A stretch of 64,000 nt of DNA, taken from NCBI GenBank assembly GCA_021324175.1, contig JAJPJP010000422.1:20797-84796 (forward strand), in the 5' to 3' direction. Under the pieces are notes generated by a model. The model searched no databases. It saw only the letters and a list, made by a program, of their open reading frames with translations, and was not told where the DNA came from. This DNA is from Chitinophagia bacterium. Lineage in GTDB: Bacteria > Bacteroidota > Bacteroidia > Chitinophagales > Chitinophagaceae. Below are positions 20,037-50,420 of this stretch, one piece after another. The position numbers were made by a program, and so were the translations under genes. Within the stretch, counting starts at the first letter, position 1. Each line of letters opens with the position of its first letter.

Positions 20037-20049
20037 CTTTTACTTTTTT

Positions 20050-20080
20050 CTTCCCGGCGAGAATTACCCGCGCCGGGAAG
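20050..20080. promoter_or_regulatory. Hairpin in murC-ftsQ intergenic region
   Basis: Perfect 10-bp stem CTTCCCGGCG/CGCCGGGAAG with 11-nt loop, 13 nt upstream of ftsQ start. Confidence 0.6.
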
Positions 20081-20164
20081 GCTTCTGAGACCCACCCAAC
20101 GGCCCCGTTTTGACCGTCAGATGGGTACAATATGCCCAGGTGAAAGTCCTGGACACAATTTGGG

Positions 20165-21532: not shown

Positions 21533-21542
21533 TCAAGTCAAT

Positions 21543-22640: not shown

Positions 22641-23913
22641 CCTGTATTTGCTTTTTCCCTTCCAACTGCTCAACATTACGTGCGACACTCAGAATGATCC
22701 CAATGGCGAGGCATGTAAACAAAAACGAACTCCCTCCCATACTGATCAGCGGAAGCGTCACGCCGGTCACCGGGAAGAGGTTTACATTCACCGCCATATT
22801 TGCCAAGGCCTGTATGGCAAGCGTGAAACTCAGCCCCAGAGCCAAAAAGGCACCAAAAGCAAATGGGCATCTCTTAAAAATCCGGATGCTCCTGAACAGG
22901 AATAATAGGTAAATGAAAATCACAAAAGCAGCGCCGGCCAAACCATATTCCTCGATGATGATCGCATAAATAAAATCGGAATAGGGGTGGGGCAGAAAGT
23001 TTCGCTGTTGGCTGTTGCCCGGGCCAAGCCCGATCCAGCCGCCTTTGGCGATCGCTATTTTCGCCTGGTTTACCTGGTAAGCGTCTTCATCGTTCATTAC
23101 CTTGCTTCCATAGATAAATGTCTCCACGCGATTGATCCAGGTGTCGACCCGGATAAAGAGGTGGGACCTGCCCTCCGTCTTCACTACTTCTGTGATGCCG
23201 TCACTCGATCCGTGCCGGACTACTGCTGCACAAATCAGGATAATAACAGGCACGAGTGCAATACCGATCGTAATCAGCAGGTGTTTTGTGCTTACGCGCC
23301 CGATAAACATAAGCATCATGCTTGTAGCTCCGACGAGTAGCGCCGTTGACAAGTTCGCAGGCGCGATCAATAAGCAAACGATCGCTACAGGCGCCATGAC
23401 TGGCAAAAAGCCCTGGTAAAAATCCTTGATGACTTCCTGCTTCTTGCTCAGCAGCCTGCTGAGATACATAAACAACGCCAGCTTCGCCAAATCAGAAGTC
23501 TGGAAAGTCAGGTTGATGATTGGCAGACGTATCCAGCGGCTTCCTTCGTTCAACTTGACGCCGAAGAAAAGCGTGTAGATCAGCAGCGGGATGGAAACCA
23601 GGAAAAGGATCTTAGCCACCTTGGAATAAATGATATAGTTTACCTGGTGTGCGAAATATATAATGAGCACACCGACCACGATAAATGCGAATTGCTTGAA
23701 CAGGTAGATTTCCGTATTGCCCTTGTACATTTTATACGCGAGTAGTCCGGTGGAACTATAAACAGCAAGTAGTGACACCAGGGCAAGCAGGATCACGCTG
23801 GTCCAAATGATTTTGTCTCCCCTGGTCTTCGAACCCAGGCGCTGAAAATGGTTTTTGTCTAAAGTGAGAAAATCGGCCATTTGATTCATGTTCTGTTTAA
23901 CGGGTTGTTCCAA
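22630..23913 (-). CDS. ftsW: FtsW/RodA-family peptidoglycan polymerase
   Basis: Multi-TM; GGWIGLGPGNSQQRNFLPHPYSDFIYAIIIEEYGL, PLISMGGSSFLFTC; overlaps murG. Confidence 0.95.
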   Translation of the reverse strand: MEQPVKQNMNQMADFLTLDKNHFQRLGSKTRGDKIIWTSVILLALVSLLAVYSSTGLLAYKMYKGNTEIYLFKQFAFIVVGVLIIYFAHQVNYIIYSKVAKILFLVSIPLLIYTLFFGVKLNEGSRWIRLPIINLTFQTSDLAKLALFMYLSRLLSKKQEVIKDFYQGFLPVMAPVAIVCLLIAPANLSTALLVGATSMMLMFIGRVSTKHLLITIGIALVPVIILICAAVVRHGSSDGITEVVKTEGRSHLFIRVDTWINRVETFIYGSKVMNDEDAYQVNQAKIAIAKGGWIGLGPGNSQQRNFLPHPYSDFIYAIIIEEYGLAGAAFVIFIYLLFLFRSIRIFKRCPFAFGAFLALGLSFTLAIQALANMAVNVNLFPVTGVTLPLISMGGSSFLFTCLAIGIILSVARNVEQLEGKKQIQDES

Positions 23914-23924
23914 CGCTAAAAACC

Positions 23925-25265
23925 TCAGAGATCCCTGACGGCTTCTTTGAATTGCCTGCCCCTGTCTTCATAATTTTTAAATAAGTCAAAACTGGCACAG
24001 GCCGGGCTCAGCAATACCACATCGCCTTTATTGGCAAAATGGAACGAGGCCTGCACGGCTTCCTGCGCGCTCCTGGTATCCACCATCACCGGCACGTCGT
24101 TTTTGAATGCCTCGTGCAGTTTTCGGTTATCCACACCCATGCATACGATCGCTTTTACTTTTTCCTTGACTAAGTCGCGGATCAGGGAATAATCGTTTCC
24201 TTTATCAACCCCGCCGAGAATCAGGATCGTGGGCTTTGTCATCGTTTCAAGCGCAAACCAGACGGAGTTGACATTGGTCGCTTTGCTGTCGTTGATAAAT
24301 TCGATGCCGCGCACCGTCGCCACATATTCCATTCGGTGTTCGAGAGCTTCAAAACTCTGAATCGCCTCCCGGATTTTTTCCTTGCGTATACCCACAGTCG
24401 CTGCAGCCAGGCTGGCAGCCATCGTGTTATACTGGTTGTGAATCCCTTTTAGCGCAAAGTCATAAATGCTCATTTGCATCTTCTCGCTGCCCGTGACGAG
24501 CGTCATTTGCCCGTTGCGGATAAAGCCGCCTTTTTTTGGTTCATTAAACATGGTAATTGGAAGTGGGTTAGTATGATGGGTATAATTATCGACGTATTGT
24601 TTAGTTACGGGATCGTCTTCGCAATAGATGAATGAGTCATTTGGTCCCTGGTTCATGACTATGCGAAACTTGCTCCGGATGTAATTTTCAAACTTGTACT
24701 CGTACCTGTCCAGGTGGTCTTCTGTGATATTGGTTAATATCGCGACGTCCGCTTTAAAATCCCTGATATCATCGAGCTGAAAGCTGCTGATCTCAGCGAC
24801 ATACCACTGGCGCGGACTTTCAGCCACCTCTTTGGCAAACGAGTACCCTATGTTGCCCACGAGTGCGCAATCATATCCTGCGTGGCGAAAAATATGATAG
24901 GTCATGGCAGTCGTCGTTGATTTGCCGTTGCTGCCCGTGATTCCTACAATCCTGGAATCGCCCTTGTATCTGTAGGCCAATTCGACTTCGCTGACGACCG
25001 GAATATTTTTTTTCCTGACTTGCACGACCATTTCATTTTTTTCCGATATGCCGGGGCTCTTCATGACTTCATCAGCTTGCAGGATTTTCCCGGCGGAATG
25101 CTGGCCTTCCTCGAATTCGATATTGTGCGCCAACAATTCAGTTTTATATTTCGGCTGGAGAAGACTGCTGTCCGATACAAACACGTCATAGCCATTCAGC
25201 TTTGCCAGCAAAGCCGCGCCAACACCGCTTTCTCCGCCTCCGAGAATGACCATGCGTCTTCCCAT
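23925..25265 (-). CDS. murD: UDP-N-acetylmuramoylalanine--D-glutamate ligase
   Basis: ILGGGESGVGAALLA, GITGSNGKSTTTAMTYH, NDSKATNVNSVWFAL, SPACASFDLFKNYEDRGRQF. Confidence 0.97.
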   Translation of the reverse strand: MGRRMVILGGGESGVGAALLAKLNGYDVFVSDSSLLQPKYKTELLAHNIEFEEGQHSAGKILQADEVMKSPGISEKNEMVVQVRKKNIPVVSEVELAYRYKGDSRIVGITGSNGKSTTTAMTYHIFRHAGYDCALVGNIGYSFAKEVAESPRQWYVAEISSFQLDDIRDFKADVAILTNITEDHLDRYEYKFENYIRSKFRIVMNQGPNDSFIYCEDDPVTKQYVDNYTHHTNPLPITMFNEPKKGGFIRNGQMTLVTGSEKMQMSIYDFALKGIHNQYNTMAASLAAATVGIRKEKIREAIQSFEALEHRMEYVATVRGIEFINDSKATNVNSVWFALETMTKPTILILGGVDKGNDYSLIRDLVKEKVKAIVCMGVDNRKLHEAFKNDVPVMVDTRSAQEAVQASFHFANKGDVVLLSPACASFDLFKNYEDRGRQFKEAVRDL

Positions 25266-25374
25266 TTTTTAATGAATAGAATTTTATCTCCGGTTAGGTT
25301 GAAGAGGTAAATAGGAAATTGGATCTGGCGTTTTAGTTTTCAGGGTTGCAGCCTTGTTCACATGACCGGCAGCC

Positions 25375-26655
25375 TCATCTTATTTTTAAAGTCACGATCG
25401 TAAACATCACGCAGAGGATGGTCACGATCCAGAATCTTGTCACAATCTTGCTTTCATTATATCCCAGCTTTTGGTAATGATGGTGCAGAGGGCTCATCAG
25501 GAATATCCTCCTGCCCTCGCCGAATTTTTTCCTTGTGTATTTGAAATAAGACACCTGTATTAGCACGCTGGCGCTCTCCACGAGAAACACGGCGCAAAAA
25601 ATCGGGATCAGCAATTCTTTGCGCACAATAATCGCCAATGCGGCGATGATGCCACCGAGGGCGAGGCTCCCCGTATCTCCCATGAAAACCTGTGCGGGAT
25701 AGGCGTTATACCACAAAAAGCCGATACAGGCTCCTATGAGCGCGCCGATGAATATGGACAGTTCGCCCAGATTCGGGATGTACATGATGTTCAGGTATTC
25801 GGCAAAACGGAGATTCCCGCTGGCGTAAGCGAAGACGCCAAGACAGGCGCCGATGATCGCGCTGACTCCGGTAGCGAGGCCGTCAAGACCATCGGTGATA
25901 TTCGCTCCATTTGAAACTGCCGTAACGATAAAAATGACGATGATGATGTATAAAATCCATGTCGCGCCGCGCAGTGCCGGCGGTAGCAGCTTCGAATAGT
26001 TGAACTCATGGTTTTTGACAAAGGGAATCGTGGCAATCGGCTCTTTTGCCTCGGCAAAATATTTCTCCTTGCCTTCCAGTACCACAGTTTTGAGACCTAT
26101 CGTATCAACGGGCTTTTTGTCACCCACATATTCGCGCCACGCTTTTGTATTGCTGTTAAAATAAAGCGTTGTTGCGACAACAAAACCGAGCACAACCTGG
26201 CCGAGCACCTTAAACCAGCCCGCAAGTCCGTCTTTGTCGCCCTTTTTATAAGGCACGCCCATCTGTTGGGCGATACGTTTTGCGCGCAGTTTCAGGAAGT
26301 CGTCGATAAAACCAATTATTCCAAGCCAAATTGTACAAAAGATCATCAGCCTGATGTAAGCTTTGGTCAGGTTGGCAAGCAGCAGTGTCGGGATCAGGAT
26401 AGCAAGAATAATAATGATGCCTCCCATCGTTGGCGTTCCTTTCTTTTGCTGCTCACCTGCGAGACCAAGGTCTCTCACACTCTCTCCGACCTGTTTGGTT
26501 AGTAGTATGGTAATCAGTCTTTTTCCATATACCGTCGTAATAATAAGTGAAAGGATCACTGCAAGCAGCACGCGGAAGGTGATAAATTGGAATAGGCTTC
26601 CGCCGGGTATTTTTGCACCGTTTTGCCTCAACCAATCAAACAAATGATACAACAT
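25375..26655 (-). CDS. mraY: Phospho-N-acetylmuramoyl-pentapeptide transferase
   Basis: GTPTMGGIIII, GFIDDFLK, NITDGLDGLATG, MGDTGSLALGG, SPLHHHYQKLG. Confidence 0.97.
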   Translation of the reverse strand: MLYHLFDWLRQNGAKIPGGSLFQFITFRVLLAVILSLIITTVYGKRLITILLTKQVGESVRDLGLAGEQQKKGTPTMGGIIIILAILIPTLLLANLTKAYIRLMIFCTIWLGIIGFIDDFLKLRAKRIAQQMGVPYKKGDKDGLAGWFKVLGQVVLGFVVATTLYFNSNTKAWREYVGDKKPVDTIGLKTVVLEGKEKYFAEAKEPIATIPFVKNHEFNYSKLLPPALRGATWILYIIIVIFIVTAVSNGANITDGLDGLATGVSAIIGACLGVFAYASGNLRFAEYLNIMYIPNLGELSIFIGALIGACIGFLWYNAYPAQVFMGDTGSLALGGIIAALAIIVRKELLIPIFCAVFLVESASVLIQVSYFKYTRKKFGEGRRIFLMSPLHHHYQKLGYNESKIVTRFWIVTILCVMFTIVTLKIR

Positions 26656-26695
26656 GCAGTAACTATTTCAATTTTCTCAATCCTCAATTCGGTTT

Positions 26696-28162
26696 CTACC
26701 TGTCCAGCGTCACAAAAACCTGCTGGAGCACTTCCTTGTCATCAAATGGATATTTCACTCCCTTGACGTCCTGGTATTTTTCATGACCCTTCCCCGCAAC
26801 GAGCACGATATCCTCGGGTTGCGCAAGGCTGACCGCTGTTTTGATCGCCTCTCTGCGGTCAGTCATCGCGATGAATTTTTTTTTCGACGTCCCCGTCAAA
26901 CCCGTCTCCATATCCCGGATAATATCCTCGGGAACTTCGCTCCTGGGATTGTCCGAAGTGAAAATTGCCCGGTCGCTGTACTTGCAGGCGACTTCGCCCA
27001 TAATCGGTCTCTTGGTTTTATCCCGGTCCCCTCCGCACCCCACGACAGTGATGATTTGTTCATTTCGTTTGCGTAGATTCTGTATTGTGGAAAGCACATT
27101 GACGAGTGCATCCGGCGTATGGGCGTAGTCGACGATTCCGATAATTCGGTCCTTTGGAGAAACCAGATAGTCAAACCTTCCGTCCGCTCCGGTGAGCACG
27201 CTTAATTGCCTCAATACTTCCTGCTTTTCTGCTCCTATGCAAATCGACGCGCCAAACACAGCAAGCAGATTATAGGCGTTGAACTCACCGATAAGCCTGA
27301 AATGAACCTCCTGGTCATTGACCATCATGTTCAGGCCAGTGATGTCATTTTCTAGGATTCTGCCTTTGAAATCGGCCATGGTTTTCAAGCTGTAGAAATA
27401 TTTTTTTGCGTTGGTGTTTTGCAGCATCACGCGCCCGCGCTTATCGTCTGCATTGGAAATCGCAAATGCAGACGAAGGAAGCGAATCAAAGAATGACTTT
27501 TTCACGCGGACGTATTCGTCGAAACTCTTGTGGTAATCAAGGTGGTCGTGAGTAATATTGGTAAAGAGCGCGCCAGTGTATTTTAATCCCGCGATCCGTT
27601 GCTGATGAATGGCGTGCGAGCTTGTCTCCATGAATGCGTGCGAGCAGCCTTCGTCCACCATTTGCTTGAGAAGCGCATTGAGACTGACAGCGTCCGGCGT
27701 CGTATGGGTAGCGTCGAGTTTTAGTCCCGCGATCTGGTTTTGAACGGTGCTGAGCAGGCCGCATTTATATCCCATCGACGTATACAGCTTAAATAGCAGC
27801 GTCGCGACCGTAGTCTTTCCATTTGTGCCGGTGACGCCTACGAGCTTTAGCTTTTCGGAAGGCTGGCCATAAAAATTGTGGGAGATGATTCCGGCTGCAG
27901 TAGCGCTGTTTTCAACCTGCACATAAGATACACCTTCCTTCATTTGCCCAGGGTCGTTCTCATAAACGACGGTCCTTGCGCCCCCTGCGATCGCCGCATC
28001 GATAAATTGATGGCCGTTTGCTTTGACGCCTTCGACTGCGATGAACAGGCTTCCCTCCGTAGACTTTCTGGAATCCATCTGCACGTCGGTGACTTCAACA
28101 CCAAGTGCTCCCTGGGTCGCTCTGATCTTTACCTTATATAATATATCTTGCAACGTTTGCAT
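26696..28162 (-). CDS. murE: UDP-MurNAc-tripeptide synthetase
   Basis: GVTGTNGKTTVATLLFKL, VDYAHTPDALVNVL, TSDNPRSE, AGKGHEKYQ. Confidence 0.96.
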   Translation of the reverse strand: MQTLQDILYKVKIRATQGALGVEVTDVQMDSRKSTEGSLFIAVEGVKANGHQFIDAAIAGGARTVVYENDPGQMKEGVSYVQVENSATAAGIISHNFYGQPSEKLKLVGVTGTNGKTTVATLLFKLYTSMGYKCGLLSTVQNQIAGLKLDATHTTPDAVSLNALLKQMVDEGCSHAFMETSSHAIHQQRIAGLKYTGALFTNITHDHLDYHKSFDEYVRVKKSFFDSLPSSAFAISNADDKRGRVMLQNTNAKKYFYSLKTMADFKGRILENDITGLNMMVNDQEVHFRLIGEFNAYNLLAVFGASICIGAEKQEVLRQLSVLTGADGRFDYLVSPKDRIIGIVDYAHTPDALVNVLSTIQNLRKRNEQIITVVGCGGDRDKTKRPIMGEVACKYSDRAIFTSDNPRSEVPEDIIRDMETGLTGTSKKKFIAMTDRREAIKTAVSLAQPEDIVLVAGKGHEKYQDVKGVKYPFDDKEVLQQVFVTLDR

Positions 28163-30285
28163 TAGTTCAATTCCAGCGTGATGTTTTGATTTTTGGTTAG
28201 TGCGGCGCCGGGCTGGATCGACTGGGTTTTTACTTTGCCCTTCCCCCTGGTGTTTACTTTTATCTCCATTCCCTCGAGTAAATAGAGTGCGTCTTTCAAA
28301 CCGAGCCCTCTTACATCAGGCACCATTTTCCCCGCGATCGGCTGTTTTTTTAGCACGACCTGGTGACTGGCGGTATAAAGCCGGGACCAGGAATTGCTCG
28401 CTGATGAATCACTGTATACCAGCTCGAATTCGCCCAGCACTTTCTTGATGTCGCGAGTTTCGCCAGCGTAATAAAACTGGCTGCTGTCTTTCTTCAGCTC
28501 CGGGACGCCTTCGGACTCGGCATGAGGATTGTCCCGCGCAAAAAGTTTATCTGCCACTTCGCGAAACACGGGGGCCGCCACTTCGCCGCCCATGTGCTTT
28601 GCCGGATGAGCCTTCGTGCGGATCACCACGATGCAACTGTATTTGGGATGGGCAAAAGGAAAATAACCGACAAATGAAGCCTGGTAGATGCCGTCGTCAT
28701 ACTTGATCTTTGCACCTGTAGATGTTCTCCCTGCGACGTGCGCCGTTCCTGTCTTGCCCCCCGCGTCATATAGCGCCGTTTCGAATGCTTTTTTCCCCGT
28801 TCCGATTTTTGTCACTGCAAGCATGCATTCCTGCGCATCTTTGATGATGCGGCTATCGGCGACGCGCTCCTCGAGCACCTGGGGTTGAATGACTTTTAAT
28901 GTCACACCATTGCTTTGAATGCGGCTGACGAGGTAGGGCTTCATCATTTTGCCATCATTGGCGATAGCATTGTAAAGCATCAGTGTTTGTAATGGAGTTA
29001 CTTCGATCGCGTATCCAAAGCTCATAGTGATCATTGCATGCAAGCCCTCATTTCCCTTGATTTTTGGCAGCACCGGCGACTCCTCGCCCATGAGGTCAAC
29101 CCCCGTTTTTGCATCGAGATGAAATTTGTGCAAGTATTGAATAAAATGCCTGGGTTGTGAACCAAAACTCTGATAAGCAAGTTTGCTCATCCCGACGTTC
29201 GAGCTATGCGCAAAACATTCTTTGACGGTTTCGATCGGCTTCGGTTGGCGTTCTGCGTCGTTCACCATGCGGACTCCCACAAATTCTCGGCCTTCAGAAC
29301 CAACGTTGACTTCATCATTCAACGTTGTATGTCCTTCGCTCAATACTGACAGGAGCGTAACCATCTTGATCGTCGAGCCAGGTTCAGTGGCTCGAAGTGC
29401 GTAATTATAATCTTCCCAATAACTTCCATTGCGCTGCCGGCTTAGGTTGGCAATTGCCTTGATTTTACCGGTCGAGGCTTCCATGACTACGCAGGTCCCC
29501 TGCTCGGCTTCATTTTCTGACATGCCTTTTGATAGCGCATTTTCTGCCAGATCCTGGATATCTACATCGATGTTGGTAACAACATCCTTCCCGTTTTCGG
29601 GCTCGATCTCGTAGCCCTCAACTGGTACATAATTGCCCGCCGCGATATAGCGGACCAGTTGCTTCCCGTTTTGGCCCTTCAGTGCCGTATCGTAGGTGCG
29701 TTCGAGCCCGACATTCTGGGAATTCTCACGGGCTAGGCCAATGGTTCGATTGGCCAATAGCCCAAAAGGATTGAGTCTTTTGTAGTTGGTCCTGACGATA
29801 AACCCGCTCCGGTTTCTTCCAAGCCTGACCAGCGGAAAATTCCTAAGAACTTTGTACTGTTCGAACGAAATATTTTGTTGCAGTGCAAAGTACCGGTCAT
29901 CAGTCTTGTACCCCCGGAGTAATTCCTTTCTGTATGTCGCGGCTGACTGGTCCCTGAACAACCCTGCCAGGCAAATCGCAAGAGAGTCAACATTATCTTT
30001 AAATCTCTTCCCGTTTTTCTCTCTGAGGCCGTCAGCTTCAAAATCAATGTAGATGTCAAAATAGGGAATCGAAGTACTCAGCATGTTTTCATCGTCGCTG
30101 TATATCGTCCCGCGGTCGGCATCCAGTTCGGACCAGCGCTGGTGAACGCTGTCGCTCAGCTTTTTCCAGTATATCCCCTGGAAATTCTGAATGTAGAATG
30201 CTTTACCCAAAACAAGAAAGCAGAGAATGCCTATGCCGATGAAGCATAAATATACACGCCATAATATGTCTCTTTTTATTTCCAA
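28162..30285 (-). CDS. ftsI: Peptidoglycan transpeptidase FtsI/PBP3-like with C-terminal PASTA
   Basis: EPGSTIKMVTLLS (SxxK), SSN (AHSSNVGMSKL), GGKTGTAHVAG (KTGT); PASTA-like PDVRGLGLKDALYLLEG. Confidence 0.94.
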   Translation of the reverse strand: MEIKRDILWRVYLCFIGIGILCFLVLGKAFYIQNFQGIYWKKLSDSVHQRWSELDADRGTIYSDDENMLSTSIPYFDIYIDFEADGLREKNGKRFKDNVDSLAICLAGLFRDQSAATYRKELLRGYKTDDRYFALQQNISFEQYKVLRNFPLVRLGRNRSGFIVRTNYKRLNPFGLLANRTIGLARENSQNVGLERTYDTALKGQNGKQLVRYIAAGNYVPVEGYEIEPENGKDVVTNIDVDIQDLAENALSKGMSENEAEQGTCVVMEASTGKIKAIANLSRQRNGSYWEDYNYALRATEPGSTIKMVTLLSVLSEGHTTLNDEVNVGSEGREFVGVRMVNDAERQPKPIETVKECFAHSSNVGMSKLAYQSFGSQPRHFIQYLHKFHLDAKTGVDLMGEESPVLPKIKGNEGLHAMITMSFGYAIEVTPLQTLMLYNAIANDGKMMKPYLVSRIQSNGVTLKVIQPQVLEERVADSRIIKDAQECMLAVTKIGTGKKAFETALYDAGGKTGTAHVAGRTSTGAKIKYDDGIYQASFVGYFPFAHPKYSCIVVIRTKAHPAKHMGGEVAAPVFREVADKLFARDNPHAESEGVPELKKDSSQFYYAGETRDIKKVLGEFELVYSDSSASNSWSRLYTASHQVVLKKQPIAGKMVPDVRGLGLKDALYLLEGMEIKVNTRGKGKVKTQSIQPGAALTKNQNITLELN

Positions 30286-30299
30286 CTTACCCTGGTTTG

Positions 30300-30635
30300 T
30301 TATGGTTTTTTCAGCGTATCCGGCAGCGCCACCGCGGGTGCCGTCAATTCACGGAGCCCGAGAACTTCCACTGCTTTCGCCAATTCACTTTCTTTGCTCC
30401 GGAACATCACCTCGCTCCTTAACGTTTTATATTCATATTGCAACTCTTTGAGCTGCGTTTGTGCCCTTCCGATTTCACGAATGCTCTTGTCTGCATAATG
30501 CCCATTGTATATATAGATGATTGCCAGTAGTGCCAGGAACAGAAAAAAGGGGACATTTTTCACCATCCAGCGGTGCGTGTAGCGTCTTTTTAATTCGCTT
30601 TTGCTGGATTCGGCCACCTGGCTCTCTTCGCTCAT
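30300..30635 (-). CDS. ftsL: FtsL-like septum protein
   Basis: Short, single TM followed by heptad-like segment, located between rsmH and ftsI. Confidence 0.75.
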   Translation of the reverse strand: MSEESQVAESSKSELKRRYTHRWMVKNVPFFLFLALLAIIYIYNGHYADKSIREIGRAQTQLKELQYEYKTLRSEVMFRSKESELAKAVEVLGLRELTAPAVALPDTLKKP

Positions 30636-30710
30636 GAAATGAAATTTTCCGGTATTTTAAAAAGTTCCAACCAGTATTTGGATTGATTGATTTAGTCTAT
30701 TTTTCTACAG

Positions 30711-31691
30711 TTAGCGTTTTTCGGCTATTCTCAGTTTTGCGCTTCTCGCTCTTGGGTTATTTTTCAACTCAGCTTCCGATGGTCCGATCGGCTTTTTAGT
30801 CACCAGTTCGAAGGGCGGTCGTGCCCTTGCCCCAAAGAGATCACCATCTGCTAAAGAATCATCCCGGTTTCCGTGTTTGAAAAAGTTCTTTACGATTTTG
30901 TCCTCGAGCGAATGAAAGGTGATGATCACTATCCTGCCTCCGGGCTTGAGAATGCCGACCGAATCGCGCAATATGTCTTTAAGGGCATTCAGCTCGTCAT
31001 TGACCTCTATCCTTAAGCTCTGGAAAACCTGTGCAGCATATTTGTTCGGATTCCCTTTGGAAACTGAATTCAGCAGGCTCGTCAAATCGCTCGTCGTTTT
31101 GACCGGCGCTTTCTTTCTTTCCTCCACGATTTTCCTCGCCAGCGTTTTTGAATTGGTCACTTGCCCGTACTGCTCAAAAATCCGGTGCAGGTCCTTTTCG
31201 TCGTAGTTGTTGATGATTTCTGCCGCGCTGAGAACTTGCTGAATATTCATCCTCATATCCAAGGGCCCGTCAAACCGAATGGAAAAACCTCTACCTGCCT
31301 CGTCAAACTGGTGACTGCTGACCCCAAGATCGGCGACGATACCGTCGACTGCAGTCACCTCGTAAAGACGCAAAAAGCGCTGGAGATGACGAAAATTCTG
31401 GCCAATAAACACAATTCGCTCATCATCTGGCAAGTTTCGAGTGGCATCGGCATCCTGGTCAAAAGCGTAAAGCCTACCTTCTTTTCCAAGCTGGCTAAGA
31501 ATCGCCCTTGTATGGCCCGCACCGCCGAGTGTACAATCGACGTAGATCCCGCCCGGTTTGATCTGCAGACCCGACAACACTTCAGGAGTCATGATCGGCA
31601 CATGATAAGCTCCGGACTGTTCTTGTGGTTCAGATTGGGAGTTCCTCTTTTTCATAAGCCAATCCTTAAATGATTCCTCGTCAAGCCTCAC
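30711..31691 (-). CDS. rsmH: 16S rRNA (cytosine1402-N4)-methyltransferase
   Basis: YHVPIMTPEVLSGL, DCTLGGAGHTRAIL, DLGVSSHQFDEAGRGFSIRFDGPLDMRM, FHSLEDKIVKNFF. Confidence 0.96.
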   Translation of the reverse strand: MRLDEESFKDWLMKKRNSQSEPQEQSGAYHVPIMTPEVLSGLQIKPGGIYVDCTLGGAGHTRAILSQLGKEGRLYAFDQDADATRNLPDDERIVFIGQNFRHLQRFLRLYEVTAVDGIVADLGVSSHQFDEAGRGFSIRFDGPLDMRMNIQQVLSAAEIINNYDEKDLHRIFEQYGQVTNSKTLARKIVEERKKAPVKTTSDLTSLLNSVSKGNPNKYAAQVFQSLRIEVNDELNALKDILRDSVGILKPGGRIVIITFHSLEDKIVKNFFKHGNRDDSLADGDLFGARARPPFELVTKKPIGPSEAELKNNPRARSAKLRIAEKR

Positions 31692-32151
31692 CGGGCATCA
31701 TAAACTTCTTGTTCAGGAGCTTATTGGCCATGCTGCTTACTGATTCCGTTGGAAATTCTGCAAAGAACTTGGTGTACTTACTTTTATCCCAGATTTCTAT
31801 GATTCTGCCAGTGGCAAGGAGAACGATGTCCTTTTCCAGTTCGGCATGAGGTTTCAGGTTTGGAGGCACCAAAAGTCGCCCTGCGGAGTCCAGTTCAAGT
31901 ATAGTCGCCCCGTTCAGGAAAAACCGTTTGAATTGTCTAATTTCAGGATCAAAATCACTTAGGTTATTTAAATCATTGAAAATGACCTCCCAAGTCTTCC
32001 ATGGGTACAAGCTGAGGTATTTTTCCATGCCACGATTGACAACAAATCTGCTATCACTTTCATCTTCCATCTGCTTTTTGAAGCCGACAGGGAGAAGGAA
32101 GCGACCTTTTGTGTCCAAAGTAGCTTCATATTCACCAAGAAAACCAGCCAT
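31681..32151 (-). CDS. mraZ: Transcriptional regulator MraZ
   Basis: FLGEYEATLDTKGRFLLPVGFKKQM; ATILELDSAGRLLVPPNLKPHAELEKDIVLLATGRIIEIWDK. Confidence 0.95.
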   Translation of the reverse strand: MAGFLGEYEATLDTKGRFLLPVGFKKQMEDESDSRFVVNRGMEKYLSLYPWKTWEVIFNDLNNLSDFDPEIRQFKRFFLNGATILELDSAGRLLVPPNLKPHAELEKDIVLLATGRIIEIWDKSKYTKFFAEFPTESVSSMANKLLNKKFMMPGEA

Positions 32152-41201: not shown

Positions 41202-41300
41202 TTACTAACTTCCTTGGAAATAGCTTCATTTGTGTTAAATCGGACCCTCCTGTTTTGAGATACACATAAATGGTTGGAAATTTGCACTTCGAAAAACGCC

Positions 41301-44300
41301 ATGGCGGGTAACTCTACATATCAGGTCTTTCAGACGAGCTCTACGGGAAGATGGCAACGGTTTAAATGGGCAGGAAGATTCATTCTTTTTTTGCTCATCA
41401 TGGGTGTTGCTGTCATTGTCATCACGCTTTCCCGGACCAACATTCCCGACCTTCCGCGATTCGCCAATGCGCAGGAAAAACAGGTTCTGCTAGATACGAA
41501 CAGCAGCTGGCTAAACAAGAAAAGCCGAATCCTAAAACAATACGACGGATTCAGAAAATATATCACAGAAAAGGAGGCTTACAAATCAGGAGCATATCCA
41601 ATTCCGCGTCGCTTTCGGAAAAAGAATGGCGTCCTTGTCCAGGCCGACTCAAGCTTTTACTCTTTTAAGAAATTTACGACCGGCATTCGTGCCGCTTTTT
41701 ATGTCAACTGGACGCCGGAGTCTTTTGTTTCGCTGCAACAAAACATCTCGCACCTGAACATGGTGATGCCCGAATGGCTTTTCCTGGACCCGAATGCGGA
41801 TACCCTGACCACTGACATTGATAAAAAAGCCTACGAAGTGATGAACAAGTCCGGTGTTAAGATTCTCCCCCTGCTTACCAATAATGCAAAGGGCGTGTTT
41901 CACGGTGAAGTGGTGCACAGGATTATTACTGACCAGAAAAAAAAGGAGCGATTGATCAACGATATTATCGCCGTCCTGAAGAAGGATAGTCTCGATGGGA
42001 TCAATATAGACTTTGAGGAATTGCAGGAAAAACAAAACGAAACCCTGGTACTGTTCGAGCGCGAACTATACCAAAAGCTACATGCGAAAGGCTTCCTGGT
42101 AACACAGGACATTGAACCATTCAATGACGATTACAATCTTTCGGAGCTGGCCAAATACAATGATTATTTATGCCTCATGGCCTATGACCAGTATTCGGAA
42201 AGTACGCAACCCGGCCCCATTTGCCACCAGAAGTGGATTGAAGCTGCCGTTGACCAGGCAGCCAGGAAGGTCCCGCCGCAAAAAATGATCCTGGCTCTCG
42301 CAGCCTTCGGCTATGACTGGAAACTTGACGCGGAACAAAAAGCGATTCCCGGCGCAGCCAGGCCCGTTAGTTACCAGGAAGCGCTCAGCATTGCCACCAG
42401 CTTTGACGCGCAGAAAGACATCGATTTTGATAACGATTCCTACAACCTGCACTTCCCTTATGGCGACGACCGGGGTGACGATCACGAAATTCACTTCACC
42501 GACGCCGCAACAACTTTCAATACCTTAAGATTCGCGGTGGAATATGGCCTGGCCGGTGTTTCACTCTGGCGTCTGGGTTCCGAAGATTCAAGAACATGGG
42601 AATTCTATGACCACGACATGGGAAAGGATAGCATTAAGCATTTTGATTTCTCTAACCTGAGTATTATCAAATCGTTCAACAAAGGTGAAGTGCCTGCATA
42701 TCATGGTGAAGGCGAAGTCCTGGATATCGTCGGTGGGCCGCTCAGCGGACGCATTACGCCTGAAGTAGACACAAGCGAATTGCTCATAAGTGAAGAACAA
42801 TATGACAGCCTGCCATCCAAGTGGGTAGCGAGGAAGTATGGAACCAAGGATAAGAAAAAACTGGTTCTCACCTTCGACGACGGTCCTGATCAAAAGTATA
42901 CGCCGCGCATCCTGGACATTCTTGCCAAAGAAAAAGTGCCTGCTGCCTTCTTTCTGGTAGGCATAAATGCCGAAAATAATATCCCGCTCGTCAAAAGGAT
43001 TTACCGTGAGGGGCATGAAATCGGGGATCACACTTTTACGCACCCGAACATCGCCAAGGTTGGACGAAAACGCGCCATCCTGGAAATGGAATCGACCCGC
43101 CTGCTGATCGAATGCATTACGGGGCATTCGACGATCATGTTCCGCGCGCCGTTTAACGCGGACTTTGAACCTCAGACCTCCGAAGAACTCGTTCCTGTGG
43201 CGATTGCCCGCCAGCTGAATTACCTGGATATCGGCGAATCGATCGATCCGCTTGATTGGGAACCGGGAGTTTCGAGTGATTCCATTGTGGATCGCGTGAT
43301 ACGAAGAAAGCGTGAAATGACCGCGCAGAACTTAAGCGGCAATATTATTCTATTGCATGATGCTGGCGGTGAAAGCCGGGAAGCCACCGTTGAAGCGCTT
43401 CCGCAGATTATCCACTATTTCAAGGCAAGAGGTTATACGTTCACGACCATAGCGGATTTGCTCGGTAAGAAAAAAGACGAACTGATGCCGCCGGTCGCCA
43501 GAGGCAGCGGTTATTTTTTGTTGCAGATCAACTATTACCTGGCCGAGTTTGGTTACTGGGGTGGAAATATTCTTTCCTCCCTGTTCATCGTTTTTATTAT
43601 TTTTTCTGTTGGACGCATCGTTGTTTTGGGCATTATTGCGACTGACGAGTATTTCCGTGAAAAAAAGAATCCGCTCACGCCGATCCCATTCAAAGACAAA
43701 TCAAAAGCTCCGCTCGTCAGCATCATCGTTCCTGCTTTTAACGAAGAAGTGAATGCCGTAAGTTCCGTGAAGAATTTGCTGCTGGTTGATTATCCCAATT
43801 TCGAGATTATTTTCGTCGACGATGGCAGCCGGGATAACACCTTTGCCAAGGTATCAGTTGCATTCAAGAATAAAGACCAGGTGAAAGTATTTACAAAGCC
43901 GAATGGCGGGAAGGCTTCGGCTCTGAATTATGGCATTTCGCGTTCTGAGGCAAACTACGTCATATGCATTGACGCCGATACAAAACTCTTGCCCGACGCC
44001 GTATCTAAACTGATGATGCATTTCCGTTGGGCCAATGTAGGCGCAGTCGCAGGAAATGTAAAAGTCGGCAACCAGGTAAACCTGCTCACTCGGTGGCAGG
44101 CGATAGAATATGTGAGTAGCCAGAACTTCGATCGTAGGGCTTTTGCGAGTTTAAACGCCATTACTGTTGTCCCCGGCGCGATTGGAGCGTTCACCAAAGA
44201 GGCACTCGAAGACGCCGGCGGGTTTACCACCGATACGCTGGCCGAAGACTGCGATCTGACCATTCGTATTCTCAGGTGCGGATATATCGTAACCAACGAA

Positions 44301-44792
44301 CCAAACGCAATTGCGCTCACGGAATCTCCCGAAACGCTTAAAATGTTTTTCAAGCAACGTTTCCGTTGGAGCTATGGAGTCATGCAAACTTTCTGGAAAA
44401 ATCGTGATATTTTATTCAACTGGAAATACAAATGGCTCGGCTGGGCCGCTTTGCCTAATATCCTGATCTTTCAGTTTATTATTCCCTCAGTCATTCCGTT
44501 GGCCGACTTCTTTATGTTCATCGGTATTTGGACAGGCAACACAGAAAAGATACTCTGGTATTACATTGTGTTTATGCTGGTGGATGCAGCTGTGGCCCTG
44601 CTGGCCTTCAGCTTTGAACGTGAGAATAAATGGAAACTGCTTTGGCTGATTCCACAGCGTCTTGTCTGGCGCTGGCTCACATGGATTGTTCTTTTCAAAT
44701 CGATACGCAGGGCGTTCAAGGGCGAGTTGCAGCACTGGGGTGTATTAAAACGCACCGGTAATGTGAAGGACATTTCGCCCGTACGGGCCTGA
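41301..44792 (+). CDS. Fusion: GH18-like domain + polysaccharide deacetylase (CE4) + membrane GT2 synthase
   Basis: DGINIDFEE (GH18), LTFDDGPD and GDHTFTHPN (NodB), VSIIVPAFNEE, DDGS, DADT, EDCDL, QRFRW (processive GT2). Confidence 0.9.
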   Translation: MAGNSTYQVFQTSSTGRWQRFKWAGRFILFLLIMGVAVIVITLSRTNIPDLPRFANAQEKQVLLDTNSSWLNKKSRILKQYDGFRKYITEKEAYKSGAYPIPRRFRKKNGVLVQADSSFYSFKKFTTGIRAAFYVNWTPESFVSLQQNISHLNMVMPEWLFLDPNADTLTTDIDKKAYEVMNKSGVKILPLLTNNAKGVFHGEVVHRIITDQKKKERLINDIIAVLKKDSLDGINIDFEELQEKQNETLVLFERELYQKLHAKGFLVTQDIEPFNDDYNLSELAKYNDYLCLMAYDQYSESTQPGPICHQKWIEAAVDQAARKVPPQKMILALAAFGYDWKLDAEQKAIPGAARPVSYQEALSIATSFDAQKDIDFDNDSYNLHFPYGDDRGDDHEIHFTDAATTFNTLRFAVEYGLAGVSLWRLGSEDSRTWEFYDHDMGKDSIKHFDFSNLSIIKSFNKGEVPAYHGEGEVLDIVGGPLSGRITPEVDTSELLISEEQYDSLPSKWVARKYGTKDKKKLVLTFDDGPDQKYTPRILDILAKEKVPAAFFLVGINAENNIPLVKRIYREGHEIGDHTFTHPNIAKVGRKRAILEMESTRLLIECITGHSTIMFRAPFNADFEPQTSEELVPVAIARQLNYLDIGESIDPLDWEPGVSSDSIVDRVIRRKREMTAQNLSGNIILLHDAGGESREATVEALPQIIHYFKARGYTFTTIADLLGKKKDELMPPVARGSGYFLLQINYYLAEFGYWGGNILSSLFIVFIIFSVGRIVVLGIIATDEYFREKKNPLTPIPFKDKSKAPLVSIIVPAFNEEVNAVSSVKNLLLVDYPNFEIIFVDDGSRDNTFAKVSVAFKNKDQVKVFTKPNGGKASALNYGISRSEANYVICIDADTKLLPDAVSKLMMHFRWANVGAVAGNVKVGNQVNLLTRWQAIEYVSSQNFDRRAFASLNAITVVPGAIGAFTKEALEDAGGFTTDTLAEDCDLTIRILRCGYIVTNEPNAIALTESPETLKMFFKQRFRWSYGVMQTFWKNRDILFNWKYKWLGWAALPNILIFQFIIPSVIPLADFFMFIGIWTGNTEKILWYYIVFMLVDAAVALLAFSFERENKWKLLWLIPQRLVWRWLTWIVLFKSIRRAFKGELQHWGVLKRTGNVKDISPVRA

Positions 44793-44865: not shown

Positions 44866-46545
44866 ATGGCTGAAGTTATATTGATGCCAAGACTGAGTGA
44901 TACGATGACTGAAGGCGTGATTGCCGAATGGCACAAGAAGGTGGGTGATCCGGTGAAAAAGGGAGACCTCCTGGCCGACGTTGAAACGGATAAAGCAACA
45001 ATGGAGCTGGAAAGTTATAAGGATGGTACGTTGCTGCACCTGGGTGCCGACAAGGGCGCCAAATTGCAGGTCAATGATTTACTTGCGATCATCGGCAACC
45101 CGGGCGAAGATATTTCTTCACTTCTGAAGGCAAATAGCACCAAAACGCAGCCGGAAGCTAAAGATGCGACTCCTTCGCCAAAACCGGAAACGCCCCCTGC
45201 GCCAAAGACCGAGACCGCTCCTGCCCCGGCACCATCCGCCGATGTGTCTAAAATGGAAGAAGTGATTCTTATGCCGCGCCTCAGCGATACAATGACAGAA
45301 GGCGTCATTGCAGACTGGCACAAAAAAGTAGGTGATGACGTAAAAAAAGGAGACGTGCTTGCCGATATCGAAACAGACAAGGCAACCATGGAACTTGAAA
45401 GCTATAAAACGGGGAAACTTTTATATATAGGCGCTCAGAAAGGTGACAAAATTGCTGTAAACGATTTGCTCGCCATCATTGGAGATGATAAAAAAGTTGA
45501 TGTGCAAAAGATCGTTCAACTGGCTTCCGGAAACAAGGCACAGGCAGCGGCCCCGGCACCCGTCACGCCTCGTGCACAAGGTCCGCAACAGCAACAGGCA
45601 TCGCCAACTCCCGCTCCCGCAGCACCCGCAGAATCCCCAGGCGAAATGCAACATTCAGTCAATGGCGACGGCAGAATCAAAGCGTCCCCGCTGGCAAAAA
45701 AATTGGCGCAGGAAAAGGGGATCGATATTTCCAAAGTTCCCGGATCAGGCGATGGTGGGCGAATTATAAAAAGCGATATCGATAACTACAGACCCGCTGC
45801 GGCTGCCGCCAGTGCTGCGCCTGGTGCAATCAAACCGACGGTACCCACGGCTCCGGTCGGCCAGGTCAGCTTTGATGAAGTCCCCATTTCGCAGATGAGA
45901 AAAGTGATTGCGAAGCGTCTGGTGGAGAGTAAATTTTCTGCTCCTCATTTTTATCTCACCATGTCGATTGACATGGACAAGGCCGTCGATGGCAGGGCCA
46001 GACTCAACGAAGTGTCAGCCGTCAAAATCTCATTTAACGATATCGTGCTAAAGGCAGTCGCCGTTGCGCTCAGGCAGCACCCCGCCGTCAATAGCAGCTG
46101 GCTTGGTGACAAGATCCGCTTCAACCACCATATCAATATTGGCGTAGCCGTTGCAGTGGAAGACGGTTTATTGGTTCCTGTCGTACGATTCGCCGATGCC
46201 AAATCGCTTGCCCAGATTGCAATAGAAGTAAAAGACCTGGCCCAAAGGGCTAAGAGCAAAAAACTCCAACCTGCAGAATGGGAAGGAAGCACATTCACGA
46301 TTTCGAATCTAGGCATGTTTGGGATAGAAGAATTCACAGCCATCATCAATCCCCCTGATTCCTGCATATTGGCGGTAAGTGCCATACAGCAGGTGCCTGT
46401 TGTCAGAAACGGCGCAGTCGTTCCTGGCAATGTCATGAAAGTTACGCTCAGTTGCGACCACCGGGTAGTGGATGGTGCGACCGGCTCCGCTTTCCTGCAG
46501 ACGCTTAAGTCCCTGCTTGAAGAACCATTGAGGATGCTTATTTAG
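44866..46545 (+). CDS. Dihydrolipoamide acetyltransferase (E2) with two lipoyl domains
   Basis: Two ETDKATMELESYK lipoyl motifs, Pro/Ala linkers, peripheral binding domain, catalytic SCDHRVVDGATG. Confidence 0.94.
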   Translation: MAEVILMPRLSDTMTEGVIAEWHKKVGDPVKKGDLLADVETDKATMELESYKDGTLLHLGADKGAKLQVNDLLAIIGNPGEDISSLLKANSTKTQPEAKDATPSPKPETPPAPKTETAPAPAPSADVSKMEEVILMPRLSDTMTEGVIADWHKKVGDDVKKGDVLADIETDKATMELESYKTGKLLYIGAQKGDKIAVNDLLAIIGDDKKVDVQKIVQLASGNKAQAAAPAPVTPRAQGPQQQQASPTPAPAAPAESPGEMQHSVNGDGRIKASPLAKKLAQEKGIDISKVPGSGDGGRIIKSDIDNYRPAAAAASAAPGAIKPTVPTAPVGQVSFDEVPISQMRKVIAKRLVESKFSAPHFYLTMSIDMDKAVDGRARLNEVSAVKISFNDIVLKAVAVALRQHPAVNSSWLGDKIRFNHHINIGVAVAVEDGLLVPVVRFADAKSLAQIAIEVKDLAQRAKSKKLQPAEWEGSTFTISNLGMFGIEEFTAIINPPDSCILAVSAIQQVPVVRNGAVVPGNVMKVTLSCDHRVVDGATGSAFLQTLKSLLEEPLRMLI

Positions 46546-46588: not shown

Positions 46589-47443
46589 ATGTTCCAAACC
46601 TCGACCCTGCAACTACTCAGGTTTCATTTTTCCTTTTTCCTGATGCCTGTCTATTGGTTCGCACTGGGACAGATAAAACACGTTGACATTTTTGCCGCCG
46701 TATTAATATTTATCATTCTCCATATGCTTGTGTATCCGGCAAGCAACGGATACAACAGTTACATGGATCGCGATGAGACATCCATCGGCGGTCTTAAAAA
46801 CCCGGCACAGCCTACCAGGCAACTATTTTACGTGACGCTGTTGATGGATTTGGCAGCGCTTGCGTTGAGTTTTTTTATCAGCATCATTTTCGTCTTGGGG
46901 ATTTTTACGTATATACTTGCATCAAGGGCATATAGTTACCGTGGAATCAGATTGAAAAAGTATCCGGTCGCTGGCTACCTGACCGTAGTCTTTTTTCAGG
47001 GCGCTGTTGTTTTTTTCCTAGTCTGCCATGGAGCTTCGGTGGGTAGGAGCCTGGATTTTCCGGTGTGGTGCGCCATTGGGGCTTCGCTACTGATCGGAGG
47101 GTTCTACCCGCTGACGCAAATATATCAGCATAAGGCAGACCTAAACGATCAAGTGAAAACCATCAGCTATTTGCTGGGATACAGGGGAACTTTCATTTTT
47201 TGCGCTATGGTATATACCGGGGCATTTGCAATTCTTGCTGGTTATTTTAATTATTCAAACCAGGAAAGTCGTTTCCTGGTTTTCGCGGTTTCAATGCTAC
47301 CTGTCATCATCTACTTTATAAAATGGGCATTATCTGTCTGGAAAGATATGACTGAAGCCAACTTTGCAAATACCATGCGCATGAACTATCTGGCTTCGAT
47401 CTGTACCAACATTGGCTTTATTGTTGTGCTTTTAACAAGGTAA
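46589..47443 (+). CDS. UbiA-family prenyltransferase-like membrane protein
   Basis: Multi-TM; NGYNSYMDRDETSIGG and YQHKADLNDQVKT acidic motifs; sits 5' of T3PKS. Confidence 0.75.
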   Translation: MFQTSTLQLLRFHFSFFLMPVYWFALGQIKHVDIFAAVLIFIILHMLVYPASNGYNSYMDRDETSIGGLKNPAQPTRQLFYVTLLMDLAALALSFFISIIFVLGIFTYILASRAYSYRGIRLKKYPVAGYLTVVFFQGAVVFFLVCHGASVGRSLDFPVWCAIGASLLIGGFYPLTQIYQHKADLNDQVKTISYLLGYRGTFIFCAMVYTGAFAILAGYFNYSNQESRFLVFAVSMLPVIIYFIKWALSVWKDMTEANFANTMRMNYLASICTNIGFIVVLLTR

Positions 47444-47465
47444 GAACATCAAATAAAAAGATCAA

Positions 47466-48554
47466 TTGAGTAAAATAATTTCTATTGGAACGGCAAATCC
47501 CCCTTACCGCCATGAACAGCGGGAGATACTGAAATTCATGCAAAATGTATTTGCCCTAAATGATTCGGACGCCAGGAAAATCGGATTTCTTTACAGGCAA
47601 AGCGGAATTGAAACTCGCTACTCCGTGATCGCGGACTACAGCAGAAATATCAATGATTGGAAATTTTACCCGAAAACAGAGAACCTGGAACCATTCCCTT
47701 CGCTCGAGCAGAGGATGACCTGGTTTGCTAAATATGCTGCACCATTATCTGTGGATGCCATTCGTCGATGCATCAATAAGAAAATTCGTTCTGAAGAAAT
47801 TACACATCTGATTACTGTAAGTTGCACCGGCATGAGTGCACCCGGTCTCGATCTGCAAATAATCGAGTTGATGCAACTTCAAAAAAATATATTTCGTACG
47901 TCGATAAATTTCATGGGCTGTTATGCGGCGATCCATGCGCTAAAATTGGCGAATTCCATTGCCATCTCCGAACCGGAAGCCAGGATCCTGATCGTTTGCA
48001 CAGAACTGTGCACGCTGCATTTCCAGTATGAGCCTTCCATGGACAATATTTCTTCCAGTCTTCTATTTTCTGATGGTTCCGCAGCCGTTCTGGTAGTCAA
48101 TGACGGCGATCCTGCAAAAGGGTTGAGGCTGGAGAGCTTTCACGCCGAAATCCAGTCGAAAGGGAAAAAAGACATGGCTTGGGAACTTTCCTCCACTGGA
48201 TTTCTCATGACCCTGAGCAACTATATCCCAGAGCTTATCCAGGAGGATTTCAAGGCCTTTACAATGAACGCGCTCTCAAAAGCCAGCCTGGCTCCTTCCA
48301 GCATCAGCCACTGGTGTATTCATCCGGGAGGAAAAAGAATACTCGATGTGGTCGGCAACAGCCTCGGAGTTAGCGATAAACTCGGCCTGTGTTATGACGT
48401 CCTCCGGCTTTTCGGCAACATGTCTTCCGCCACTATTCTATTCGTGCTGGAAAAAATATTGTCGGAAATCGAACACTCAAAGCGCAACCGGGTTTTTGCC
48501 GCGGGGTTTGGGCCCGGGCTGACCTTAGAAAGCTTCATTGCTGAAGCATGCTAA
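47466..48554 (+). CDS. Type III polyketide synthase (chalcone/stilbene synthase family)
   Basis: Catalytic Cys (VSCTGMSAPGLD), His (WCIHPGGKRILD), Asn (LFGNMSSATILFVLE); TTG start. Confidence 0.93.
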   Translation: MSKIISIGTANPPYRHEQREILKFMQNVFALNDSDARKIGFLYRQSGIETRYSVIADYSRNINDWKFYPKTENLEPFPSLEQRMTWFAKYAAPLSVDAIRRCINKKIRSEEITHLITVSCTGMSAPGLDLQIIELMQLQKNIFRTSINFMGCYAAIHALKLANSIAISEPEARILIVCTELCTLHFQYEPSMDNISSSLLFSDGSAAVLVVNDGDPAKGLRLESFHAEIQSKGKKDMAWELSSTGFLMTLSNYIPELIQEDFKAFTMNALSKASLAPSSISHWCIHPGGKRILDVVGNSLGVSDKLGLCYDVLRLFGNMSSATILFVLEKILSEIEHSKRNRVFAAGFGPGLTLESFIAEAC

Positions 48555-49303
48555 GCTCACAATCAAAATCTATGGACCTCACTTTTCGCTCCGATAAAAA
48601 AGAGCTTCTCGACTCCGATGGAATTCCGTTTGATGCCATCAGGGCAAACATGGAAGAACTCGATCTAATCAACAGTCGGCTGGGCGGCCATAGGACAACA
48701 ATCAATGGTTTTAAGCAACTATTGAAAAATCAAAAGGAAGTGGTTGTTTGCGAAATCGGTTGCGGCGGCGGAGATAACCTGATGGCAATCCATCGGTGGT
48801 GCAAAAGAAGAGGTATTGCTGCCCGTTTTATTGGCATCGATATCAATCCTGATTGCGTTGCGATAGCCAGGGCGGCATGCGATCTGTCAAACTTTATATT
48901 CATAGCTTCGGATTACAGGCAGATCAATTTCGATAAAGACAGACCCGATATCATCTTTTCATCATTATTTTGCCACCATTTCAGTCACGATGAACTGGTG
49001 TACATGATGCAATGGATGATAGAGAATTCATCGAAAGGTATTTTTATTAATGATCTCCACCGTCATGCCATCGCCTATTATTCGATTTTTTGGCTGACAA
49101 GAGCTTTTTCAAACTCGTACCTGGTGAAAAATGACGCGCCGCTCTCAGTTTTGAGGGGATTTAGAAGAAAAGAATGGCTCGAAATCCTGGGCGATGCGGG
49201 GTTCACGCCACAAGAGCTCAGTTGGCGCTGGGCATTCAGGTGGCTTATCGTGATTAGGAAGAAAAGTACGGATTGTAATGGACCTGGAACAGGAAACATA
49301 TGA
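48548..49303 (+). CDS. SAM-dependent methyltransferase
   Basis: Motif I VVCEIGCGGGDNL, FIGIDINPDCVAIA; overlaps T3PKS stop. Confidence 0.88.
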   Translation: MLSSQSKSMDLTFRSDKKELLDSDGIPFDAIRANMEELDLINSRLGGHRTTINGFKQLLKNQKEVVVCEIGCGGGDNLMAIHRWCKRRGIAARFIGIDINPDCVAIARAACDLSNFIFIASDYRQINFDKDRPDIIFSSLFCHHFSHDELVYMMQWMIENSSKGIFINDLHRHAIAYYSIFWLTRAFSNSYLVKNDAPLSVLRGFRRKEWLEILGDAGFTPQELSWRWAFRWLIVIRKKSTDCNGPGTGNI

Positions 49304-50420
49304 TGTGGGCCTTGTCGGCGGCGGCCTGGCAGGGCTTGCACTGTCGATTCTTTTGGCCAGGTCGGGTTACCGGGTTGCACTATTCGAAAAAGAAAAATAT
49401 CCCTTCCATAAGGTTTGCGGTGAATACATCAGCTTTGAAAGCTGGAATTTTTTGGAAGATTTAGGCATCCCGTTAAGCGACTGGAATCTGCCCGTCATCC
49501 GGCGGCTGCTCGTGTCCGCACCCAATGGGAACCATCTGGAGCAGGATCTTCCGCTTGGTGGATTCGGGTTGAGCAGGTACAGGCTTGATGCTTTTCTTGC
49601 GGAACTGGCAAAAAAAGCCGGCGTCGTTTTCTTTGAGCAGACACGCGTCAACGATGTTGTCCGTGAAGGAAATTCATTCAACATCCATCATGCTGCGGGG
49701 CTAAGCTATGCGAAAATAGTCTGCGGTACATTTGGAAAGCGCAGCAACCTCGACGTCAAATGGAAACGTGAAAATCACCAGGCTAAGAAAAGCAAGCTCG
49801 ACAACTATGTAGGCGTCAAATACCATATTCTTGCTGACCAGCCGGAAGATCTCATTGTCCTCCATAATTTTCAAAATGGCTATTGCGGCCTTTCACAAAT
49901 AGAAGACGGGAAACATTGTCTTTGTTACCTGACTTCTGCAGATAATCTGGCCAAATGCGGAAATTCGATAGCACAAATGGAATCTGATATTTTGCGAAAA
50001 AACCCCTTCATCGATAAAATTTTTACCACTGCCAATTTTATCTTCAGAAACCCTGTCACTATTTCCCAAATAAGCTTTGCAAAAAAAGATCAGGTCGGGA
50101 ATCACATTCTTTTTGTTGGTGACGCCGCTGGAATGATCACGCCTCTTTGTGGGAATGGCATGAGCATGGCCCTTCATGGCGCGAAAATCGCTTTTGATTG
50201 CATGCTTCCTTACCTGCAAGGCAAACTAAGCCGTGAACAGATGGAAGCAGGATATTCCCGCCAATGGCATAAGATTTTTGCTGTCCGCCTGCGAACAGGA
50301 AGGGTCATTCAAAGGTTTTTCGGAGACGAGACTTTTTCAAATATTCTTATTGGCACAGTTAAGCCTTTCCCACGATTTTTTTCTTTCCTGGTTAGGAAGA
50401 CACATGGCGGGGCATTTTAG
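49278..50420 (+). CDS. FAD-dependent oxidoreductase (geranylgeranyl reductase/hydroxylase-like)
   Basis: VGGGLAGLALSILLARSGYRVALFEKEKYPFHKVCGEY; GDAAGMITPLCGNGMSMALHGA; overlaps the methyltransferase ORF. Confidence 0.88.
   Translation: MDLEQETYDVGLVGGGLAGLALSILLARSGYRVALFEKEKYPFHKVCGEYISFESWNFLEDLGIPLSDWNLPVIRRLLVSAPNGNHLEQDLPLGGFGLSRYRLDAFLAELAKKAGVVFFEQTRVNDVVREGNSFNIHHAAGLSYAKIVCGTFGKRSNLDVKWKRENHQAKKSKLDNYVGVKYHILADQPEDLIVLHNFQNGYCGLSQIEDGKHCLCYLTSADNLAKCGNSIAQMESDILRKNPFIDKIFTTANFIFRNPVTISQISFAKKDQVGNHILFVGDAAGMITPLCGNGMSMALHGAKIAFDCMLPYLQGKLSREQMEAGYSRQWHKIFAVRLRTGRVIQRFFGDETFSNILIGTVKPFPRFFSFLVRKTHGGAF

Follow-up and report, generated by a model that had tools for sequence, protein, structure and literature searches.

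What would an integral membrane protein of the UbiA superfamily do next to a type III polyketide synthase (T3PKS) and two tailoring enzymes? The question is raised by a four-gene cassette at positions 46589-50420 of a 64,000-nucleotide (nt) stretch of DNA from a Chitinophagia bacterium (the window; contig JAJPJP010000422.1, positions 20,797 to 84,796). The source is a 5.1-Mb draft genome, and the named relatives closest to it are Chitinophagaceae. The four genes are located in tandem, all on the + strand.

46589..47443, + strand: UbiA-superfamily integral membrane protein of a distinct subfamily (284 residues, ATG start)
47466..48554, + strand: T3PKS (362 residues, TTG start, Cys152-His286-Asn318)
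48548..49303, + strand: class I S-adenosylmethionine-dependent methyltransferase (MT), PRK06202-like (251 residues)
49278..50420, + strand: flavin adenine dinucleotide (FAD)-dependent oxidoreductase, with the fold of group A monooxygenases, halogenases and geranylgeranyl reductases (380 residues)

The UbiA and T3PKS genes are separated by 22 nt, while the T3PKS and MT genes overlap by 7 nt and the MT and FAD genes by 26 nt. An earlier reading of the window (the initial annotation) had reported four same-strand open reading frames (ORFs) here, with a T3PKS/MT overlap (48548 vs 48554) and a 26-nt MT/FAD overlap, and the ORF calls bear this out. It is very likely that all four proteins function in one pathway. 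There is a somewhat better than even chance that this pathway is of the alkylresorcinol type and makes a methylated, hydroxylated and prenylated phenolic lipid of the membrane.

Conservation of the operon and its link to the T3PKS

Genomes of named species were scanned with the T3PKS, and 40 loci were returned. The complete UbiA-T3PKS-MT-FAD series is found on one strand and in the same order in 36 of these loci, and the carriers include Niastella, Longitalea, Agriterribacter, Parafilimonas and Solitalea. The cassette is a genuine operon, because its order is intact in so many independently retrieved loci. The median intergenic gaps across the named loci are -8, +1 and -4 nt. Among the exceptions, L037 and L070 lack the UbiA gene at a contig end, L055 lacks the MT gene, and L074 lacks the FAD gene. 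A larger conserved cluster was also considered and rejected. Several neighboring genes, among them an unassigned one (c4) and those for a MarR regulator (c6) and a band-7 protein (c11), recur in close relatives only and therefore look like local synteny.

The association of UbiA with the T3PKS extends beyond the operon. A profile search was made for each protein in 297 genomes of the window's phylum, and repeated for UbiA with a broader profile. Members of the UbiA subfamily score above 160 bits, with the next background at 55 bits. The subfamily is present in 49 genomes, and all 49 are T3PKS-positive (compared to 136 of the 297 overall), although these are plain counts over genomes that share ancestry, and not 49 independent events. 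UbiA and T3PKS are both of the window type in 21 of the 49. The remaining 28, which belong to coded family f43, have more diverged forms of both partners, and their UbiA gene is elsewhere in the genome where this was read. Coded families f1, f19, f23 and f30 contain some genomes with both window-type partners and others with neither. In genomes G205, G225, G130, G217 and G247, UbiA and T3PKS genes both occur although they lie far apart or on different contigs. Outside f43, the T3PKSs of the UbiA-positive genomes group in one clade (33 rows, SH-aLRT 96), separate from the T3PKSs of UbiA-less genomes. The UbiA subfamily was not found on plasmids in a plasmid search.

The initial annotation had made its proposal depend on the four genes being conserved together. 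They are, and even unlinked UbiA genes are accompanied by a T3PKS. Its idea of an additional UbiA-type step beside the tailoring set is supported by both the kept gene order and the co-occurrence with the T3PKS.

Family f43 shows an arrangement of its own. In loci L168-L170, L174 and L195, a MATE transporter gene precedes the genes for the T3PKS, the MT and a PHBH-type hydroxylase. A 1290-residue histidine kinase-like protein also precedes them in L195, and ORFs of similar size are found in most of the other loci just named. The UbiA homologue of these genomes is away from the T3PKS locus, often beside a thioredoxin-like gene.

The UbiA-type protein

The UbiA-type protein is a member of the superfamily by both profile and fold, but it belongs to a divergent subfamily and is not a typical prenyltransferase. 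It scores 50.6 bits with Pfam PF01040 (cut-off 34.2). Structure prediction, which the initial annotation had called for, gave an AlphaFold2 model (pLDDT 93.7) with the all-helical UbiA fold. The closest folds are those of the archaeal homologues AfUbiA (4tq3 and 4tq4) and ApUbiA (4od5), with template modeling (TM) scores of 0.70-0.72, although the sequence identity to them is 17-19%.

There is a clear difference, however, in the metal site. The canonical superfamily has two Asp-rich motifs, NDxxDxxxD and DxxxD (PMC7839719). In their places the window protein has N56-S57-x-x-D60-x-D62-x-T64 and Q180-x-x-x-D184, which are embedded in the family signatures Y-P-x-S-N-x-Y-N56-S57-x-x-D60-x-D62 and Y-P-x-T-Q-x-Y-Q180-H-x-x-D184. 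When the protein is aligned by profile with ApUbiA and with the canonical UbiA of the same genome, N56, D60 and D184 fall in canonical positions. Three canonical Asp residues are replaced, by S57 (after the Asn), by T64 (at +4) and by Q180 (first in motif 2), and therefore the diphosphate chemistry may differ. Residues N56, S57, D60, D62, R121, K123, Q177, Q180 and D184 show no variation, even when the f43 members (about 25% identity) are included.

The predicted fold and the retained basic residues R121 and K123 favor a diphosphate substrate. With the loss of the carboxylates, ordinary two-metal chemistry appears uncertain, and D62 is a possible substitute metal ligand. Two polyprenyl synthases in the genome are possible sources of the prenyl donor. 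Overall, we consider prenylation of the ring the probable function of this protein.

Alternatively, the protein may not be an ordinary aromatic prenyltransferase. Acting on the T3PKS product or on an isoprenoid, it could catalyze a cyclization or use another donor, or it could be a scaffold without catalytic function that holds the soluble enzymes at the membrane. The invariance of Q180, S57 and D62 (the last in place of an Asp at +4) in all members is what such a protein might show. This explanation is nonetheless unlikely, as the fold matches that of UbiA homologues with bound prenyl diphosphate, and N56, D60, D184, R121 and K123 are kept, with D62 as the possible substitute ligand.

A fourth UbiA-like protein is encoded in the same genome (G000:C449:2745-3251, locus L004). 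It scores 27.7 bits, below the Pfam cut-off, and has no clear N-x-x-x-D motif.

The soluble enzymes and the proposed pathway

The T3PKS contains the N- and C-terminal Chal_sti_synt domains (89 and 69 bits in Pfam). The Cys-His-Asn catalytic residues recognized in the initial annotation are indeed retained, and are invariant in 24 relatives. The N terminus from the TTG start aligns with the starts of the relatives. No other T3PKS was found in the genome. The nearest solved sequences are Steely1 (2h84), PKS III (4b0n) and PKS18 (1ted).

The MT belongs to Rossmann class I, with 48.2 bits for Methyltransf_25 in Pfam and 122.9 bits for NF004851 (below the cut-off of 243). The stretches SSLFCHH and LGGH are invariant in its family. 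The FAD protein scores 36.5 bits with FAD_binding_3 in Pfam, and its model (pLDDT 86.3) matches PltA, Bmp2 and 3-hydroxybenzoate 6-hydroxylase. Its sequence and fold matches are mixed overall, comprising halogenases, 3-hydroxybenzoate hydroxylase, PqsL, UbiI and a geranylgeranyl reductase-like protein. Halogenases are the top matches, but a halogenase was rejected as the WxWxIP motif is absent in 37 of 37 relatives. Genome G130 carries two cassette-type FAD copies (C23:509283-510413 and C26:37978-39099), only one of which adjoins the T3PKS.

A FAD-MT-T3PKS cluster without UbiA is found in coded family f25, with identities to the window proteins of 42% (FAD), 33% (MT) and 27% (T3PKS). It continues with SDR, dehydratase-like, ketosynthase and phosphopantetheinyl-transferase genes. 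Loci L171 (6003-12360) and L175-L181, from f25, f23 and f30, are UbiA-less clusters of this kind, the dehydratase being FabA-like (Pfam assignments in L171). The extra genes possibly provide a dedicated acyl starter for the T3PKS. Because the MT and the FAD protein persist across two types of T3PKS, with or without UbiA, their probable target is the polyketide ring and not a prenyl tail.

The starter itself could instead be short, or the ring made of malonate only (phloroglucinol- or orcinol-type). The prenyl chain would then be the sole lipid tail, in an isoprenoid quinone resembling ubiquinone. Ubiquinone is tailored by a prenyltransferase, a methyltransferase and a flavin hydroxylase, the set that the cassette mimics, and Steely1 and PKS III are not typical long-chain alkylresorcinol synthases. 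On the other hand, the f25 clusters are consistent with a dedicated acyl starter, and the T3PKSs that have been characterized beside MT and FAD genes in other phyla produce long-chain alkylresorcinols (PMC10896814, PMC8086630). We regard such a ring as improbable, and slightly more so than a non-standard UbiA.

The FAD protein might also be an isoprenoid reductase that saturates the prenyl chain added by UbiA, and not a ring hydroxylase. UbiA-type enzymes and geranylgeranyl reductases share pathways in archaeal lipid and chlorophyll biosynthesis, and the best NCBIfam family of the protein is GG-red-SF (TIGR02032). The score of 99.1 bits is under the cut-off of 158.8, however, which leaves the protein outside that family. 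Moreover, the homologues with 42% identity adjoin MT and T3PKS genes in genomes where no such UbiA is detected, and the T3PKS-MT-FAD clusters of other phyla show no UbiA neighbor. In f43 the FAD position is occupied by a full-length FAD_binding_3 (PHBH-type) protein, which points to hydroxylation. A prenyl reductase is thus the least probable of these three alternatives, and it was not adopted in the proposed pathway. That UbiA belongs to an unrelated pathway and is a chance neighbor is very improbable: the gene is unlinked in some genomes, but the tight operon in 36 of 40 loci and the co-occurrence in 49 of 49 genomes, unlinked cases included, already disfavor it.

The computations show a conserved operon, a UbiA subfamily that co-occurs with the T3PKS, the modeled folds, and intact catalytic residues in the T3PKS. 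These observations can be assembled into the alkylresorcinol-type pathway as follows. The T3PKS would add malonyl units to a fatty acyl starter and cyclize the product to an alkylresorcinol (or alkylresorcylate). The MT would place a methyl group on a ring carbon or oxygen, and the FAD enzyme would hydroxylate the ring to give a quinone or hydroquinone. Within the membrane, UbiA would prenylate the ring, taking the polyprenyl chain from a prenyl diphosphate. The end product would be a ring with alkyl and prenyl tails, a two-tailed phenolic lipid or quinol, following a logic like that of cannabigerol or plastoquinone. We infer the starter, the mode of cyclization, the methyl position, the prenyl donor, the order of the steps and the product.

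Several points weigh against this pathway. It is built from sequence, gene context and predicted folds. The product class of the T3PKS cannot be told from its sequence, although the neighbors and the precedents favor an alkylresorcinol synthase. The FAD protein also scores with geranylgeranyl reductases. UbiA was not detected in 8 of the 36 T3PKS-positive f43 genomes, and therefore not every T3PKS in this wider group requires it. The replaced Asp residues and the shared ancestry of the co-occurring genomes belong here as well.

A further proposal is more tentative than the pathway itself. A UbiA with a rearranged metal site may have been recruited to a T3PKS clade of Bacteroidota, giving a class of bacterial lipids undescribed so far: a ring with fatty alkyl and isoprenoid chains, methylated and oxidized to a quinone or quinol, and possibly redox-active beside menaquinone. 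The operon, which is shared by many environmental (soil and water) Bacteroidota, probably indicates an undescribed lipid, for which it supplies a precise four-gene unit. The subfamily may also be a natural experiment on UbiA catalysis: it has the usual fold but fewer canonical metal-binding Asp residues, and its co-occurrence pattern links it to a single type of aromatic substrate.

Other features of the window lie outside the cassette. A pyruvate dehydrogenase E2-like gene (44866-46545) is located between the cassette and the gene directly upstream (41274-44792, + strand), which encodes a 1172-residue protein with a GH18 domain, a polysaccharide deacetylase and a family 2 glycosyltransferase. 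A dcw-like run of cell-division and cell-wall genes is found at 15602-32151 (- strand). It starts with MraZ, includes a penicillin-binding protein and a Mur ligase, and ends with FtsZ (Pfam, four genes).

Comparison with known systems

The T3PKS, MT and FAD core is widespread and already known, and has been linked to methylated or oxidized alkylresorcinols. The three genes adjoin on plasmids of Psychrobacter, Deinococcus and Roseomonas, and by annotation of Microbacterium, and a T3PKS-FAD pair is found in Novosphingobium (plasmid set). No UbiA neighbor was seen at the T3PKS-MT-FAD plasmid clusters of other phyla. The MTs of Psychrobacter, Roseomonas and Deinococcus match the window MT profile. 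The window FAD profile is matched by the proteins of Novosphingobium, Roseomonas and, more weakly, Psychrobacter, and barely by that of Deinococcus. UbiA is the only lineage-specific part of the cassette, and with its altered motifs it is the new element.

The initial annotation had equated the cassette with srsABC of Streptomyces griseus, where a T3PKS, a methyltransferase and a flavoprotein/monooxygenase give methylated, hydroxylated phenolic lipids. The tailoring set is indeed shared, but srsABC has no UbiA, and SrsB is a protein of the isoprenylcysteine carboxyl methyltransferase (ICMT) type (PMC6669644), whereas the window MT is a Methyltransf_25 protein of Rossmann class I with no ICMT match in Pfam. 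Two other operons are nearer. The compact hidABC (hierridin) operon of cyanobacteria encodes a T3PKS, a methyltransferase and an oxidoreductase and gives long-chain alkylresorcinols (PMC8086630). In a planctomycetal MT-FAD-T3PKS operon, the T3PKSs made alkylresorcinols and co-expression of MT and FAD added one methyl group, with the role of FAD left open (PMC10896814). As in the cassette, each has one T3PKS, one MT and one oxidoreductase. In these two operons, the MT acts on alkylresorcinols. The likeness is one of gene set, and the standard forms have no UbiA and a different gene order. Among the hid clusters, one from Raphidiopsis includes a prenyltransferase (PMC8086630).

The altered metal motifs, the lineage-specific nature of UbiA and one precedent were overlooked in the initial annotation. 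That precedent is the loseolamycin locus of the actinobacterium Micromonospora endolithica, known from BAC MT904273, where genes for a UbiA family prenyltransferase and an MT lie 2-3 genes from the proven alkylresorcinol synthase gene losA (PMC7587189). An acyl-CoA dehydrogenase gene replaces the FAD gene there, no role was shown for the UbiA, and the compounds were described without prenylation (PMC7587189). Likened by gene family only, the locus may serve as a partial precedent. No characterized UbiA/T3PKS cassette was found in Bacteroidota, which is weak evidence as open-license literature only was covered.

In the plant cannabinoid pathway, a T3PKS-derived ring is followed by a UbiA-type aromatic prenyltransferase, as in the route proposed here. 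The likeness is an analogy only, since the plant pathway has a separate cyclase and no MT/FAD pair. If found, bacterial prenylated alkylresorcinols would be relatives of the plant cannabinoids in chemical logic.

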